A stretch of 8,497 nt of DNA. Source: Candidatus Fermentibacterota bacterium (GTDB lineage: Bacteria > JAFGKV01). The stretch lies in assembly GCA_030620115.1 (NCBI GenBank), contig JAUXFG010000161.1, forward strand, positions 1-8,497, in the 5' to 3' direction. Made by a program: the position numbers and the translations under genes. Shown here in pieces: positions 1,187-8,412 of this stretch (positions within the stretch are counted from its first letter, which is position 1; the number at the start of each line of letters is the position of its first letter). The notes beneath the pieces are model-generated. The model saw only the letters and a program-made list of their open reading frames with translations, was not told where the DNA came from and searched no databases.

Positions 1187-1251
1187 GTTCAGGGGTTCAG
1201 GAAGAATCCGGTCTTTGGCCACTGGTCCCCCCCAAATCCTGAACCCTGAAC
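1187..1251. repeat. Inverted heptamer-derived repeat (hairpin)
   Basis: GTTCAGGGGTTCAGGA at 1187-1202 is complementary to TCCTGAACCCTGAAC at 1237-1251, with a single extra G bulged in the left arm. Intervening loop 1203-1236. Both arms are built of the GGTTCAG/CTGAACC heptamer seen around the larger composite repeats. No run of T follows, so it does not look like a Rho-independent terminator. Confidence 0.6.
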
Positions 1252-1442
1252 CCTCTCTTCTCCCTTCCCCAAATCCCCCAATCCCCAAACCGCCCAGATT
1301 CTTCGGTCGTTCCGCTCCCTCAGAATGACAGGCATTCACACATCCATCCCCGCACTACCACTGTCATTCTGAGCGACATCAAGGAGCGAAGAATCTCTCC
1401 CACATCCTCTCTCCATCATCTGAACCCTTAACCCTGAACCCC
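1238..1442 (-). repeat. Composite inverted-repeat element, copy 1
   Basis: Order on the plus strand: CTGAACC heptamers, a pyrimidine-rich stretch (1253-1295), a 35-nt arm at 1296-1330 (AGATTCTTCG...TCAGAATGACA), a 31-nt spacer (1331-1361), the inverted 35-nt arm at 1362-1396 (TGTCATTCTGAG...GAAGAATCT), a second pyrimidine-rich stretch, CATCAT and CTGAACC heptamers. It is in opposite orientation to the copies at 5636 and 8231. Read in the common orientation, its spacer shares GTGGTAGT at the left and GTGTGAATGC at the right with copy 2, at identical total length. It fills the gap between the receiver and methyltransferase genes. Confidence 0.85.
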
Positions 1443-1464
1443 CCCAGACAGGAAAGGCGATAAC

Positions 1465-1986
1465 ATGACTCACCAGCACACGCAGAGGAAAGCACAACAA
1501 CAGCGGGACGACCTTACCGGGGAGCATGCAGTTGGCGATGCGGGGCAGATAGTCTTGGCCTGCCTGTTTGCGGCAACGTGGATAGCCGACACATTCTTTC
1601 TCAATTACACGACTTTCCTCAACCAGTACGTGCCGCTTGGCGCCAGAATACCATGTGGAGTCATTCTGTTGGTTCTATCGGGCTACCTGGCGAGAACAGG
1701 CCTGTCTATCGTGTTCGGCGAGAAGAGAGAGAAGCCTGACGTGATCAGGAAAAGCGTGTTCAATGTGGTTCGCCATCCAGTATACCTGAGCGAGATTCTG
1801 CTCTATCTTGGTCTTCTGATGCTGAGGACATCACTGGCCGCTGCAGTGGTGTGCGTTCTTGCGATCGTCTTCCTGCATTGTATCTCTCGCTACGAAGAGA
1901 GGTTGCTGCTTGAGCGCTTTGGCGAGGAGTATGAGCAGTACATGCGGGAAGTGCCGATGTGGATCCCACGGCTTCGGAGAAGGTGA
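1465..1986 (+). CDS. Isoprenylcysteine carboxyl methyltransferase-like membrane protein
   Basis: A 173-residue integral membrane protein resembling the ICMT/PEMT-type methyltransferases, which bind S-adenosylmethionine near the membrane surface. Hydrophobic segments lie at about 27-46, 62-83, 107-119 and 123-140. The hallmark C-terminal part is present: VVRHPVYLSE (101-110), where RHPxY is the conserved SAM-contacting motif, and the closing RYEERLLLERFGEEYEQYM (142-160) with the paired glutamates, ending with PMWIPRL. The first 25 residues are polar and unlike the fold. The start is supported by GGAAAGG (1451-1457) seven nt before the ATG. The substrate cannot be told: bacterial members act on diverse small molecules or lipids, and most are uncharacterised. 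It stands alone between two repeat-filled gaps and converges on the CapA-like gene. Confidence 0.85.
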   Translation: MTHQHTQRKAQQQRDDLTGEHAVGDAGQIVLACLFAATWIADTFFLNYTTFLNQYVPLGARIPCGVILLVLSGYLARTGLSIVFGEKREKPDVIRKSVFNVVRHPVYLSEILLYLGLLMLRTSLAAAVVCVLAIVFLHCISRYEERLLLERFGEEYEQYMREVPMWIPRLRRR

Positions 1987-2085
1987 ATGGGGCTGATGGC
2001 CAAAACATGCGACGCTCACAACTGCATCCAGGCGCCACGCACAACCGCGTCGCTAATGCACCCGTTAATGACTGAGGTCCCGGGG

Positions 2086-2159
2086 GTCATCGCGAGCGAC
2101 AGCGCGGCGATCTCAATGGGCGGATGAGATTGCTTCGTCGCTACTCTCCTCGCAATGAC
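2086..2159. repeat. Paired inverted repeat, second type (GTCATTGCGAG family)
   Basis: Left arm 2086-2115 (GTCATCGCGAG...GCGATCTCA, 30 nt) and right arm 2125-2159 (TGAGATTGCTTCG...TCGCAATGAC, 35 nt) are inverted relative to each other around a 9-nt loop, ATGGGCGGA. Each arm is also a small imperfect palindrome (ATCGC/GCGAT in the left arm, ATTGC/GCAAT in the right). The element sits between the convergent methyltransferase and CapA-like genes, 13 nt from the latter's stop. It could stop or stabilise transcripts from both sides, but that is inference and there is no T tract. Confidence 0.85.
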
Positions 2160-2214
2160 TGGCCGGGATTTCTCACCGGGTTTCGTCGCGAGAGGGTCGA
2201 GATGGTTGTGGCTG

Positions 2215-2242
2215 TCCCGCACCCAACGCTTTGGGTGTGGGA
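2215..2242. repeat. 12-bp hairpin inside the 3' end of the CapA-like frame
   Basis: TCCCGCACCCAA (2215-2226) pairs with TTGGGTGTGGGA (2231-2242) through 12 positions, one of them G-T, around a CGCT loop. It lies in the last 30 codons of the CapA-like frame and encodes part of the Pro/Gly/Ser-rich tail beyond the FN3-like domain. No T run follows on either strand. Confidence 0.7.
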
Positions 2243-4257
2243 TGAGAAGTTCGGGCTAATGTGGGAAGTTCCGCGGTCACTTGGTAGTAACTCTGGTCGT
2301 GGGTCGTGCTGACATGCTCGTCTATGTATTCAGTGCCTTCCTGGGTAACGATGAGTTCCCACGGACCGTATGGATATTCGCTCCGGTAGATGTGATAGCT
2401 CTCTGCAAAAGGAATGGGCGACCAGGAGAGACGCATGGAATCATCGAGAGGCGTGATGCAAAGATCAGTGACCGACGTCTGAGAGCTCACATACAGGTCA
2501 ACGGGGATCTCCATGGTGCCGGCATACGGATCACTGGATCGCACGATGATTCGCTCACCATAATGCCCTTCCTCCAAACCAAGGGCATTAACATGAACCG
2601 TGATCTCCTGAGCACTGCCCGGCCCCAAGCATCCGCTTCGCGGAGCGCATTGAAGCCAGTCTGCAGCCATGCTTAACGCGAAACGCAAGGATCCGTCACC
2701 CGCGTTGGAGATCATTATCGGCGCTGAGGCGCTCCCGTTCACCGGCACGGCAATGGCCAGACTACAAGGATCCAAAACGATCTGGGGCAGATACATGAAA
2801 CCGAACTCGGTCTCTGTATATGATGCCGAGACGCTCTCGGCCTCTGAGCTCGACATGAGCTGCAGCCAGTAATAATCGTTGGGGACGGCTAGCTCGGCAT
2901 TCCCTCCAAAGGGTTGCCACTCCGTCCACTGAATGAGGCCCGCATTGTCAAACCACGAAAGCGCCTCTCCCTGTTCGGGGCAGTTGCTGAACAGCCTGAT
3001 GTCAAAGTAGTTCGTCTGCTCAGGAATCGTGAGTTCTTTGGAGTACAAGGCCCAATCCGAATCCCCCCATATCTGCACACCTATATCTTCGGTATCCAAG
3101 ATCGCTGAACCGTATCTTGTTTCGTAGTAACGTATTTGGATTGTCACCTCAGCGCCGTTCTGTGTTTTCATACACCCGTGCAGGGAGAAATCCGAATCCT
3201 CATAGCGTTTGACGCGCCGCTCGAAGTTCGTGACCACATTGATGCCCGAGTCAGCCTGGCGCCGGTGACAGAGAGAACGATCACCCTCGAATGATGTGGA
3301 TTCATCATACCATTCGTGCTCACTGTTCACATTCCAGAGAGTACAGCCTTCATTCTCGAAGTTCCCGAACCAGATGATCTCCCTGCCGAGACGGTACGAC
3401 CAGTCCTGCCCAGGGGATACCGCATCTACGGAGGAGATGTGACCGCAGCGCGCCAAGGGGATCGGCTTCGTAGACCACATGCCGTTCTCCTCAGTGACCG
3501 CGCAGCCCGCTGCAAAGGTACACTCGTTGGTTTCCATCGAGAGCGTGTCGAGTATGAGCTCCGCCATGATGTGATATCTGTCCACAAACAAGTACGTATC
3601 CAGCTCCTTTGATCGCCGTGCAAGATAGTCCAACAGGTGTTGACCTAATTCGCCGGTGGCCGGAACAGGAATCCAATCATCAAGATAGACCGGCGTGATG
3701 GAGAGCTCGGAGAAACCGGTCTCGTCTATCTTCGTATTCAAAATCATGGTGGGGAACGTCTCCGGATAGCGGAGATCAAAGGTAAAATTCCCCAAAGAGT
3801 GCGCAATCACCTTCCCATTGTAGAGCTCGAAGCCTTGAATCACGTGCGGATGATGACTAACTACGAGATCGGCGCCGGAATCAATGGCAGCCTGCCTTAT
3901 GGCCCGATCGCGATCCGAGGGGACCAAGAGCGATGAAAAGTACTCCTCATCTCCATAGGGATCCTGGAGTTCGGTCTCATCGTACTCCTCCCTGGGTATG
4001 GGGGCGTACTCGGTACCGGAATGGGTCCCCACAATGGTGAGATCCGCGTGGTCCCGAACCACCTCGATCTGCCGCGCTATGGCATACTCGGTCATATTGG
4101 CGAACCCAGGCTTGTTGTATCCCGCATTCAGGTAGGGCTGGTCGTTGTTATACTGCCCCGTACGATCACTGGAGAAAAGGAATGCGAGATTGACACCCGA
4201 TTTCGAGAAGAAAGCAGGCAGGTATGCCTCATATGAGTTCGCGCCCGCGCCTGCATA

Positions 4258-4260
4258 CTA
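4258..4260 (-). other. In-frame amber codon in the CapA-like gene
   Basis: The minus strand reads AAC GAT GTC TAG TAT GCA GGC GCG GGC, that is NDV-stop-YAGAG. The continuation from 4257 to 4096 stays open (54 codons: YAGAGANSYEAYLPAFF and onward) and joins the downstream ATG at 4095 in the same frame. In CapA-family proteins a GAG motif normally follows the ANNH helix region at this spacing, so the stop replaces a single variable residue just before it. No good start or ribosome binding site for re-initiation is seen at 4095. Confidence 0.93.
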
Positions 4261-5508
4261 GACATCGTTCTCAGCCAATACCGCCTGGGTCTGCTGCAGG
4301 CCAGGCAGCAGATAGTCAATGATATGATTATTGGCAATGGTCACCACATCGATCCCCGCATATACGAGTCCGGCAACGTTTTCCGGAGATGATTTGAAGT
4401 AGATCGGTTTGGTGGGGTGGTGCTCAGTGCAATCGGTGAGGGGGCACTCGAGGTTGGCCACCGTGATGTCCGCCGCCTGCCCCAGTATCGCCAGGGTCGG
4501 CTCGAATATGGCCTCAACACCCTGAGTAGGGATGATTCCCCCACTTTGCTCGTAGCCGCGGGCCAACATGATGTCTCCCACAAAATTCATGGTGACCGGA
4601 AAGGATGTCGGTCCGGGGTCGACATCCACCATGCAGGTTGCACGGCCCCAGAGATACGTGTCGTCCATCACCTCCAGAAGTACGGTGTACGCGTGGTCAT
4701 CCAGCACGAGATATGTGTGCATCGGATTCTGTTCCGTGCTTGTTGAATCGTCGCCAAAATCCCAATAGAACTCATGGCTCTCACTGTCAGGGTCATGAAC
4801 TATTCCAGAGAACTGCACATCAACGTGACGCATCCCCTGGGGGCTTGTACGAATCTTGCCTACGGACAGCCCGATCTCGACTTCCGGTGCTACGGGCAGA
4901 TCATCAGTGATGTCCACGATAAGATCGAAGTAAGCGATCCCAGGCTCTCCCCCATCGTTGTCGTTCACGAATACAAGCCCGGTAATCTCCGGCAGGTATC
5001 CAAAGAAGGCGAGCCAATCATCAGTCACGGGTAGAGGAAAAACGTTCCACTGGTCTTGTTCGAAAGCGCCCTGGTACACGGTGACCCATTCCTCGATATC
5101 CAACTGCTGGGTCCCTGCAAAGGAATAGAAGAGCACATGGGAACCGTCCATGATCCCAAAGCCGTGGATCTCCGGCGAACCCTGAGTATATGCGGCAATC
5201 TCCCAGACGTCACCGAAGTCAAGCGTTACCGGTTCGATCTCTTCTGTCTTCCACGTATTCCCAAACAGCTTGAGGGAGTATGGCGAGCCGTCATAGGTGA
5301 CTTCCGCATCCAGCAGCCATGAGTCCGGATCCAGATCTTGCTCTGCGTATGAACCCAACTCAACCTCCCCATCGTCGAAATCCTCGATGACCGTGGCCCG
5401 AAGGACAGATGGGAGGTTGTGCTCCCGAGGGTGGGATAGCGAAAACACGGGAGACAGAACTCCCAGCAATAACATGACGATGATGAGGCTGAATCTCCAT
5501 CTGCTCAT

Positions 5509-5635
5509 GACAATCCTGCAGCGTCTCTTTACTGATGGGAAAGATATCATACGGTCAGCTCGTTGAAGATGGTCACTCCAAAACGTCTTGTCAAAGCAAT
5601 GCATGTCCTTTATCCCAGTATGTAGCCGTTCATGG
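5509..5635. other. Upstream region of the CapA-like gene
   Basis: This 127-nt stretch between the CapA-like start and copy 2 of the composite repeat must hold that gene's leader, and possibly its promoter. A TTGACA hexamer reads on the minus strand at 5594-5589, but the sequence 17 nt further on (CATCTT) is a poor -10 match, so no promoter is called. AGGA at 5517-5514 is the likely ribosome binding site. Confidence 0.4.
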
Positions 5636-5824
5636 CTTCAGGGTTCAGGGTTCAGGGTTCAGATGATGGGGCAAGAAGCAAGGAGAGATTCTTCGCTCCT
5701 TGCAGTCGCTCAGAATGACAGTGGTAGTACCTATGCGGGTGTGTGAATGCGTGTCATTCTGAGGGAGCGGAGCGACCGAAGAATCTGGGAGGGGAGGGGG
5801 GAAGCGTTTAGCGTTCAGGGTTCA
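5636..5824 (+). repeat. Composite inverted-repeat element, copy 2
   Basis: Starts with nearly four GGTTCAG heptamers (5636-5662), then ATGATGGGG, a purine-rich stretch, a 35-nt arm at 5686-5720 (AGATTCTTCGCTCC...TCAGAATGACA), a 31-nt spacer (5721-5751), an inverted 35-nt arm at 5752-5786 (TGTCATTCTGAG...GAAGAATCT), GGGAGGGGAGGGGGG, and heptamer-like GCGTTTA GCGTTCA GGGTTCA. The outer 10 and 11 nt of the two arms match perfectly as an inverted repeat, while the central 14 nt differ. It lies between the divergent CapA-like and beta-helix genes. Confidence 0.88.
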
Positions 5825-5902
5825 CCAAGATCTGAACCGTTGATTCGTGAGTTCTGGATGGAGAAGGCACGAGAATGGAACGATTTGAGGATATGCCATC
5901 CA

Positions 5903-5980
5903 AACCCTGAACCTTCAAACCCTGAACCTTGATCCTCTGAACCTTGAACCACTGAACCTTGAACCTTGAACCTCTGAACG
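5903..5980. repeat. Degenerate CTGAACC/TTGAACC heptamer array
   Basis: About ten heptamer units of the form (C/T)TGAACC or close variants (CTGAACC, TTCAAACC, TTGATCC, TTGAACC, ACTGAACC) follow each other with 1-2 nt offsets. This is the reverse complement of the GGTTCAG units that border the composite elements, so the 5636-5980 interval is bounded by heptamers in opposite orientations. Confidence 0.75.
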
Positions 5981-6087
5981 CTCACCATTGATTTCGTATG
6001 CTTGGAGTAGCATATGAGAGACTTCACGGTGTTATACAGTTGGTGGAACCGGTATGGCATCTCAATAGATCCGGATATCCGACCTCC

Positions 6088-6150
6088 TCCCCCTTTCGCA
6101 AAGGGGGATCGAGGGGGATTTCTCCGACAACGTCCGCGCTTCTTGAGAAA
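6088..6150 (+). repeat. Dispersed AAAGGGGGAT...GGGGATTTCTCC repeat, copy 2
   Basis: TCCCCCTTT (6088-6096) pairs with AAAGGGGGA (6100-6108) as a 9-bp hairpin with a CGC loop, followed by TCGAGGGGGATTTCTCC and a stretch ending CTTCTTGAGAAA. This is the uninterrupted form of the repeat seen split at 162-240. It ends about 50 nt before the beta-helix gene, so it would lie in that gene's leader if transcription starts further upstream. Confidence 0.7.
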
Positions 6151-6185
6151 CCACGAACCGGTCACATGCTACTTGGGCGCTTTTC

Positions 6186-6191
6186 AGGAGG
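6186..6191 (+). promoter_or_regulatory. Strong ribosome binding site of the beta-helix gene
   Basis: AGGAGG, a full Shine-Dalgarno match, with 6 nt (GATCTC) before the ATG at 6198. It fixes the start even though the resulting signal peptide is unusual. Confidence 0.85.
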
Positions 6192-6197
6192 GATCTC

Positions 6198-8102
6198 ATG
6201 CCGGCTGCTGTAATGATCCTGGTCATCCTCTTCTCGCACCACGTGCAAGAAACACTCAGAGATGCCGGCAGGGCCTACGTCGCCGGCGCCCGGCCACCAG
6301 CGATAGAGGCAGTAAAACCAAGCCTCCGTAGCGGAGCGGCCCGTGCGATTCTCGATCTCAAGAACGGGTTTGATTCTCTGTTGAACGACCCCGCCCAGCT
6401 CATCATCGGAGACACGCCGGCTGAGACCCTGACCATCAGTGGTGAGTGGACCCAATCTGAAGACATCATCATCATCAATGACGGGGTTCTTCTTATCAAG
6501 AACGCCGACCTCTCCATGGAGGCCGATATCCTGGTATTGAATCAAGGAAGGCTGCGGGCGGACAGCTCGACAGTGGTGTTCGATCAGCAATTCATCTATC
6601 AGCGTGGCATCATCGTGGCAAATGCAGCAGTGTTCGAGATGAACGACTGTTGCGTGGCGGCCAATGGGTATCCCTATAACTTCTCGATCCTGGACTCATC
6701 GACTGTGCAAATAGCACGAGTTCACTACAATGATTTCACCACATACGCGCTCTTTGGAAGCCCTACGCTGGACAAACGCCACGTCAATCTTGCGGGCGAG
6801 TTCGTGGTGCTCGACGCCGCGCAGTGTACCTTCGTGGACATCGACACCATGCTCGTATGGTGCAGCATGATGGACTCGTCGGTGATAGACTTCGCCTTCC
6901 CCCCGCCGGGCCCTGTATTCAATTGGCGATTCGATTCGAATACCACAGGAGTCGCCGGCGTTGATTACAGTGTGTACTGCGATTCCGTGTATTACCCCTG
7001 GTGGGGCATGTTCTCAGGCACCGGGTCTGACGTCACCATAAGGGACTCCCAGATCAGAACGTGTGGGATATTCTTCGAAGATGCCGCCGTGGACACGATC
7101 TCAGGTCTGGTGAACGGCGTATCGTACGGCGATCACACGCTTCCTCTCGCCGATAGAACCCTCCGATTCATCAACACGAACGTGCAGACCATCTCCCTCT
7201 ATCCGTGGGACCGCGCGCAGATCTCTTTCTCGGCCTGTATCCTCGGCGAAGTGCTCACCATGGACGAATCCTTCGCAGTGGGGCAGAGCTACTTCTTGGA
7301 TGGCTCGGGTGGCCATATCGGAGCAACCGGTCAATCAGTCAACATCGCCGCCTTGGCCATGCTTACATGTGACGCGTTAGTGGGAGAGAACGCGGCTCTC
7401 ATCTTGGCGGCATGTGCCCAGTTATGGGGACACAATTGGGCGGAGGATCATGCAAGGCTCTTTCTTGTGCAGACTTCCACTTCTTCCCTCCCTGTGGCCT
7501 TTGATAGCGCCACCGTAGGCTACGAATTCGTGTCCGGCCCCGCCACTGGCCCCATCGACGCCATGGTGCCGATCTTGGGATCGGTCTGGGTTGATGCCGG
7601 CCCCAATGGCAATGCCAATCTTCTGGGATACAGGGTATTCTTCGAACGCCCCGGTGATACCACGAGGTGGCAGATCGACGCGGAGCAGAGAAACGAGGTC
7701 AGGGAAGATACACTGATCGTGTGGGATACCGGCTTCCTCACCCCTGGCAACTACACCATCGTGGTGCAGTTCTACGATACATGGGGAGATACGCTGGAAG
7801 GATTCTGCCCCATCAGGCTCGAAGAAATGACCGTTGCCGAGGAAGATCTTGCCAAGATCCTGACCTTTGATGCCTTCCAGTCAGGCGATGGGCTCCGGTT
7901 CCTTTTCTCGCTGCCCAGCGCGGGAGATGCCAGCCTCACACTGTACGACATCGCAGGGAGACTCATTGGCACTCCCTGCACAGGAAAAAAAGAACCCGGG
8001 ATATGGACATTTGACTTCCGCCCCCCCGCCTCAGGTTTCTATCTGGCGCGCCTCGAAACCGACTCGGGAATTGTGGTCCGGAAGCTCTCCTATCGAAGAT
8101 AG
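6198..8102 (+). CDS. Secreted beta-helix protein with C-terminal sorting domain (T9SS type A-like)
   Basis: A 634-residue predicted extracellular protein. Residues 4-13 (AVMILVILFS region) form a hydrophobic core of a probable signal peptide, which lacks the usual basic residue. About 70-440 are short repetitive beta-strand turns rich in V, I, D, N and S (for example GVLLIKNADLSMEADILVLNQGRLRA, 96-121), which looks like a right-handed parallel beta-helix. Residues 450-540 (GSVWVDAGPNGNANLLGYRV, then LIVWDTGFLTPGNYTIVVQF) form an immunoglobulin-like domain common in secreted proteins of FCB bacteria. Residues 556-634 form a Por-type sorting domain: LTLYDIAGRLI (580-590), then SGFYLARLETDSG and the basic end VVRKLSYRR. 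No catalytic residues could be assigned; a polysaccharide-binding or surface role is possible. It is divergent from the CapA-like gene, 689 nt away. It ends in TAG exactly at the natural end of the sorting domain. Confidence 0.85.
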   Translation: MPAAVMILVILFSHHVQETLRDAGRAYVAGARPPAIEAVKPSLRSGAARAILDLKNGFDSLLNDPAQLIIGDTPAETLTISGEWTQSEDIIIINDGVLLIKNADLSMEADILVLNQGRLRADSSTVVFDQQFIYQRGIIVANAAVFEMNDCCVAANGYPYNFSILDSSTVQIARVHYNDFTTYALFGSPTLDKRHVNLAGEFVVLDAAQCTFVDIDTMLVWCSMMDSSVIDFAFPPPGPVFNWRFDSNTTGVAGVDYSVYCDSVYYPWWGMFSGTGSDVTIRDSQIRTCGIFFEDAAVDTISGLVNGVSYGDHTLPLADRTLRFINTNVQTISLYPWDRAQISFSACILGEVLTMDESFAVGQSYFLDGSGGHIGATGQSVNIAALAMLTCDALVGENAALILAACAQLWGHNWAEDHARLFLVQTSTSSLPVAFDSATVGYEFVSGPATGPIDAMVPILGSVWVDAGPNGNANLLGYRVFFERPGDTTRWQIDAEQRNEVREDTLIVWDTGFLTPGNYTIVVQFYDTWGDTLEGFCPIRLEEMTVAEEDLAKILTFDAFQSGDGLRFLFSLPSAGDASLTLYDIAGRLIGTPCTGKKEPGIWTFDFRPPASGFYLARLETDSGIVVRKLSYRR

Positions 8103-8132
8103 CTTCGTCGCGTCCGCAGTGTCACCATCACC

Positions 8133-8195
8133 GGCCATGAGAGACCATGGCCCTCCAGCGCGAATGTGTCTCGCGCATCCGCCTTCGCACTGGAG
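8133..8195. repeat. Two adjacent hairpins after the beta-helix gene
   Basis: GGCCAT 8133-8138 pairs with ATGGCC 8147-8152. Immediately next, CTCCAGCGCGAA 8153-8164 pairs with TTCGCACTGGAG 8184-8195 with one mismatch in 12 and a 19-nt loop. They begin 30 nt after the stop codon and could end or protect the transcript. No T tract follows, so they are not called a Rho-independent terminator. Confidence 0.6.
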
Positions 8196-8235
8196 CTACG
8201 GCGCGACAAGAAGGCGCAAAGGACGCAAAGAGGAA
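8177..8235 (+). repeat. Short dispersed-repeat-like segment (TCCGCCTTCG... and CGCAAAG units)
   Basis: ATCCGCCTTCGCACTGGAG, GCTACGGCGCGACAAG and then GGCGCAAAGGACGCAAAGAGG follow one another. CGCAAAG occurs twice at 9-nt spacing (8216-8222 and 8225-8231 region). From memory, similar strings recur between genes in many bacteria, but no second copy occurs in this window, so the family assignment is weak. Confidence 0.4.
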
Positions 8236-8412
8236 ATGGGGGAATGGGGGAAGGGAGAGGAGAGCGTTCAGCGTTCAGCGTTGAGATGATGGGGGACGGG
8301 GAGAGGAGAGATTCTTCGCTCCTTGTGGTCGCTCAGAATGACAGGGGTGCTTGATGCTGGATGTGTGTCATTCTGAGGGAGTGGAGCGACCGAAGAATCT
8401 GGGAGGGGGGAT
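8231..8412 (+). repeat. Composite inverted-repeat element, copy 3
   Basis: Purine-rich GGAAATGGGGGAATGGGGG, AAGGGAGAGGAGAG, three GCGTTCA-type heptamers (8264-8284), GATGATGGGGG, purine-rich stretch, 35-nt arm 8309-8343 (AGATTCTTCGCTCC...TCAGAATGACA), a 22-nt spacer (8344-8365), the inverted 35-nt arm 8366-8400 (TGTCATTCTGAG...GAAGAATCT) and GGGAGGGGGGATT. Same orientation as copy 2. The spacer is 9 nt shorter than in the other two copies, and the right-hand heptamers are missing. Confidence 0.85.

Follow-up and report, generated by a model that had tools for sequence, protein, structure and literature searches.

The paired repeats lying between the genes of this DNA are probably dimers of CGTC-tagged REPs, whose arms would fold as single-stranded DNA hairpins, would have spread by a non-RAYT route and would now be under selection. 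The stretch analysed (8,497 nucleotides, hereafter the window) is contig C191 of a draft genome of 4.1 Mb in 296 contigs. It contained three A-type pairs (1296-1396, 5686-5786 and 8309-8400) and a single B-type pair (2086-2159), made up of the following parts.

1296..1330, minus strand: A1 arm of A dimer 1 (TGTC-ATTCT-GA-GG-GA-GC-GGA-AC-GA-CC-GA-AGAAT-CT), matching the A-arm pattern with 0 mismatches
1331..1361, no strand: spacer of A dimer 1, 31 nt, the length shared by 66 of the 110 tail-to-tail A dimers
1362..1396, plus strand: A2 arm of A dimer 1, pattern with 0 mismatches
2086..2113, plus strand: B-left arm, stem ATCGC/GCGAT, tag outside
2127..2159, minus strand: B-right arm, stem ATTGC/GCAAT, tag outside
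5686..5720, minus strand: A2 arm of A dimer 2, pattern with 0 mismatches
5721..5751, no strand: spacer of A dimer 2, 31 nt
5752..5786, plus strand: A1 arm of A dimer 2, pattern with 0 mismatches
8309..8343, minus strand: A2 arm of A dimer 3, pattern with 0 mismatches
8344..8365, no strand: spacer of A dimer 3, 22 nt, below the usual length (22 nt in 2 of 110 tail-to-tail dimers)
8366..8400, plus strand: A1 arm of A dimer 3, pattern with 0 mismatches

All six A arms in the window matched the 35-nt pattern TGTCATTCTGAG-N2-A-N7-GA-N2-GAAGAATCT without a mismatch (dinucleotide shuffles, 0.00). The A and B pairs were of opposite polarity, with the TGTC tags inside the pair in A and outside it in B. 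The arm positions and stem sequences given in the original prediction were all correct, as was, within the window, its count of one pair in each of the four gaps that follow the first gene. Among its gap coordinates, those of the third gap (5509-6197) are better placed at 5605-6197 by the ORF limits.

Genome-wide, 469 A arms were detected with up to 3 mismatches (none with a reversed-pattern control), and B elements were found in at least 55 places. Gaps between genes were surveyed in 1.74 Mb of the 4.1 Mb, on contigs picked partly for holding arms, yielding 503 gaps of at least 150 nt. Neither type was present in 355 of them (71%), while 88 had a single A block and no B, 48 a single B block and no A, and 4 both kinds. 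The suggestion that every gap carries a pair thus failed outside the window, which is dense and not typical. Both types were located almost wholly outside genes, 5 of 165 A blocks and 1 of 68 B blocks falling within called genes. A third arm type, with a core like TGAGTG..GAGC and an A2-like end, was found at L030 1316-1350, L041 10814-10848, L045 12008 and L049 11895. It was always single and unpaired in the sampled contigs.

Read from the tag, the A1 arm is composed of TGTC, ATTCT, GA, GG, GA, GC, NNN, GC, GA, CC, GA, AGAAT and CT, and the A2 arm differs from it in the middle (GC, GA, CT..AG, GA, GC). The layout of the A arms is a 5-bp stem, a tandem G.A step, 1-2 bp, another G.A step and 2 bp closing a loop of 3, with a CT(G/C) tail. 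The tag was TGTC in A arms, and in B arms it was GTC preceded by a base that varied. In this genome the stem started with a complementary AT (ATTCT, ATTGC, ATCGC). On the tag-bearing strand the stem was interrupted by tandem G.A mismatches and was often capped by GC-GNA-GC. In the cross-phylum set of arms described below, the GNA loop occurred in 42 of 66 arms with both cap pairs formed, N being A in 14, T in 12, C in 9 and G in 7. GNA loops closed by G-C pairs form extraordinarily stable DNA mini-hairpins (PMC4686876). The heptamer d(GCGNAGC) of Hirao, Yoshizawa et al. (cited in PMC4686876) is the apex of many A1-type arms, with N variable. As presented in that article it is known from synthetic oligonucleotides, whereas here it belongs to a natural repeat known from its sequence.

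A DNA folding program returned the proposed fold of the A arm, in which the G.A steps form 2x2 internal loops. Under DNA folding energies a single A arm folded no better than shuffles, and whole A dimers were much more stable than their shuffles (z about -6). Folded as RNA, the dimers were also strongly structured whichever strand was taken (z -2.9 to -7.1). Such folding would suit elements acting in RNA, as transcribed hairpins that terminate transcription or stabilise mRNA 3′ ends, and roles of this kind are proposed for REPs in PMC3733652. However, no preference for convergent gaps was found in the sampled contigs, where convergent and divergent gaps numbered 18 and 19 for A and 13 and 11 for B, with the background no different. 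In addition, the G.A steps and the GNA loop lie on one strand per arm, the paired arms being on opposite strands, and a search of Rfam matched no family. We consider an RNA-level role unlikely. A DNA-level reading is favoured indirectly by the G.A and GNA signature and the lack of a bias towards gene ends. A preference of B elements for convergent gaps, seen under a first crude gene call, was gone under a coding-score gene call. The asymmetry between G.T and A.C wobbles, considered as a guide to the folded strand, was roughly even by eye and was not used.

The original prediction had pointed to compensatory changes in the stems, for which the window itself offers one A stem and two B stems. 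Among the A arms of this genome the terminal stem was practically invariant and provided no useful covariation signal. The genome-wide alignment of arms, suggested as a check, therefore neither supported nor refuted covariation. Since the terminal stem is fixed within A, public collections were searched with three stem pairs left free, which produced 85 distinct matches, some on viral contigs and some in named genomes. Spread over many phyla, 70 of the 85 were fully complementary, with ten different stem sequences. Watson-Crick counts at pairs 7-31, 8-30 and 9-29 were 77, 79 and 72, against maxima of 53, 68 and 60 in permutations that leave relatedness in, the stem types coming from Chloroflexi, Deltaproteobacteria, Clostridia, Bacteroidetes, Gemmatimonadetes and others. 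The inner pairs were assessed in 107 distinct sequence windows from more loci (full stem in 85). Pairs 13-25, 16-22 and 17-21 exceeded all 4000 permutations, and control pairs slid by one were near chance and not above the permutations. The cross-phylum pattern imposed the AT start, the outer G.A steps, A15 and G23-A24. The inner G.A steps are free of any pattern condition only in the own-genome data, where positions 14/24 and 15/23 were conserved although the search pattern left them unconstrained. Compensatory change is thus strong across the wider superfamily and emerged once other phyla were included. Covariation among phyla supports the predicted arm structure and, with it, the idea that the arms are kept as foldable units.

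The A and B types fit into the superfamily of CGTC-tagged REPs set out by Di Nocera et al. (2013; PMC3733652), which bears out the proposed relationship between them, both belonging to one REP-like superfamily. CGTC REPs were described in 2013 by Di Nocera, De Gregorio and Rocco, in whose account of the family (PMC3733652) they have no known mover and no dedicated transposase. According to that account, the shared features include a TGTC/GTC tag at one end, a stem starting with AT, high copy number, intergenic location and inverted dimers, heterodimers among them. Wide spread across phyla and the absence of an adjacent transposase (here with regard to Y1 transposases) are also shared. Unlike the plain stem of 8-9 bp with a loop of 4-5 nt given in the text of PMC3733652, the stem here contains tandem G.A interruptions, and the tail is CT-G/C where that text has CCA. 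REPINs and GTAG REPs associated with RAYT, as portrayed in PMC6006769 and PMC3116915, are also tagged palindromes that form hairpins as inverted dimers. However, they are described there with a GTAG tag and an adjacent RAYT, and the tag of A and B is TGTC/GTC. The comparison within the phylum covered three genomes, namely this one and two from another genus of its family, G001 and G002. Neither of the latter two contained the A framework as an exact match. Both carry a related CGTC repeat with the outer stem ATTGC/GCAAT and the inner stem GTCC/GGAC, for example GTCATTGCGAGTCCGCCCGAGGACGAAGCAATC.

In orientation the A dimers depart from CGTC REPs, for which PMC3733652 gives head-to-head as typical and calls tail-to-tail rare. 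Tail-to-tail dimers accounted for 110 of 113, with 3 head-to-head, a spacer near 31 nt and one A1 arm always joined with one A2 arm. Loci from other genomes were head-to-head in 47 cases and tail-to-tail in 12, the latter mostly within arrays, and the B pair in the window is head-to-head. It is possible that the tail-to-tail A unit arose when the junction of two head-to-head dimers in an array became the copied unit. Inverted arms at a nearly fixed distance might also be expected of a MITE mobilised by a DDE transposase with target-site duplication. However, matching 5-8 mers, the trace that target-site duplication would leave, were not enriched at the element ends at any offset, and each arm is itself a tagged palindrome, a better fit to REPs. 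A MITE origin is thus highly improbable.

The original prediction had likened these repeats to REPs moved by RAYT (TnpA-REP) transposases, and had proposed looking for Y1 or RAYT genes flanked by either repeat. Four Y1_Tnp genes were found in the genome, and no A or B arm lay within about 1.5 kb of any of them. One, L011, encodes a RAYT of the DHLH...YIHYNP type with the look of subclass 2.2. It is situated amid eight GTAG REPs, forming a REPtron (locus L023, 12474-17691), with no CGTC arm seen on its contig closer than about 8 kb. The GTAG REP had 24 copies in 0.9 Mb. Judged from sequence, a GTAG REP/RAYT system is present in the genome separately from the CGTC arms. Two further Y1 genes, L009 (896-1917) and L010 (1354-2468), were bounded by their own inverted repeats containing GGGGTCAG. 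This sequence fits the GGGGWSAS motif of TIRYT genes, making L009 and L010 putatively TIRtron-like.

The presence of a RAYT in the genome, together with the high copy number, intergenic location and inverted hairpin dimers of the arms, is what would be expected if they were REPINs moved by that RAYT. Apart from the arrangement of the four genes, the wider survey also argues against this origin. A CGTC-like arm was near a Y1 gene at 1 of 42 Y1 loci from several genomes. No Y1 match was found in 12 of 48 CGTC-bearing genomes, some of which may be incomplete assemblies, and these 12 include 8 of the 20 with at least 25 CGTC arms. Moreover, arm density was no higher where Y1 genes exist, with medians of 3.9 CGTC arms per Mb with Y1 and 14.7 without. 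Movement of the arms by RAYT is therefore unsupported, and we regard it as improbable.

Strong constraint on the resident A copies is suggested by the way in which they vary. The sample comprised about 1.74 of the 4.1 Mb, on contigs picked partly for arms, and the spacer comparison was confined to those of exactly 31 nt. Scanning all sample positions for the 21 framework positions gave 255, 34, 4, 2 and 1 sites with 0, 1, 2, 3 and 4 mismatches, followed by background. Decayed A arms were almost absent, although spacers were about 15% apart between nearest copies. Between nearest relatives by spacer, divergence was 1.3% for framework positions, 14.4% for arm centres and 15.2% for spacers. The tag, outer stem and outer G.A steps were almost unchanged from copy to copy, in contrast to the drifting arm centre and spacer. 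Neutral decay would leave intermediate arms and almost none were seen, so that strong constraint is the simplest reading.

Fast turnover is its main rival. Under constant duplication and loss with no benefit to the host, arms would look clean because broken copies cannot be copied and soon vanish. The sharply bimodal framework mismatches are consistent with such selfish turnover, as is the patchy distribution, with no exact A-framework match in G001 or G002. However, a nearest neighbour with an identical spacer was found for only 2 of 64 dimers, with roughly 40% of the genome sampled, and spacers differing by about 15% between nearest neighbours make residence times look long. Turnover alone is possible, and we hold it to be a doubtful explanation.

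For CGTC REP dimers under selection, the following sequence of events is proposed. On the tag-bearing strand each arm would form a hairpin with an unpaired TGTC/GTC tag followed by a 5-bp stem and tandem G.A mismatches. Beyond these would come a stem of 1-2 bp, tandem G.A again and a small GC-rich cap closing a loop of 3 nt, frequently GNA. The tag and folded arm would be read by a protein, most likely on DNA that is single-stranded in replication or extruded as a cruciform. Copies would have been spread by an enzyme other than this genome's RAYT, and those now resident may be held by selection on the recognition feature. Tentatively, the sheared G.A steps and GNA caps could be what a non-RAYT protein recognises, under purifying selection and with a shared host role at hundreds of intergenic sites. 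These data extend CGTC REPs to further phyla with a covariation-backed structure bearing a DNA-like signature. They also add several CGTC-rich genomes with no Y1/RAYT gene found, and a recognition framework that stays constant against drifting spacers. A defined substrate is now available with which to search for the mover or binder of CGTC REPs.

Other features were observed in the window. A further dispersed repeat, GGGGATTTCTCC...TTGAGAA, was present at 206-241 and 6114-6149, the two copies being 78% identical. A PGA_cap/CapA-like gene on the minus strand was split by a single in-frame TAG at 4258-4260. Its halves are in one frame and both match the same Pfam family, and the TAG may represent a nonsense mutation, an assembly error or readthrough. 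Heptanucleotide tandem repeats were abundant in intergenic DNA, both in the window (1235-1441, 5640-5990 and 8263-8285) and in sampled contigs of the same genome. Their units included TGAACGC and TGAACCC, with GTTGAAT-like and AGATTNN-like units as well. Lag-7 matches in intergenic DNA were about three times as frequent as at most other lags, and about three times as frequent as in coding DNA. These intergenic repeats resemble the STRRs of cyanobacteria.
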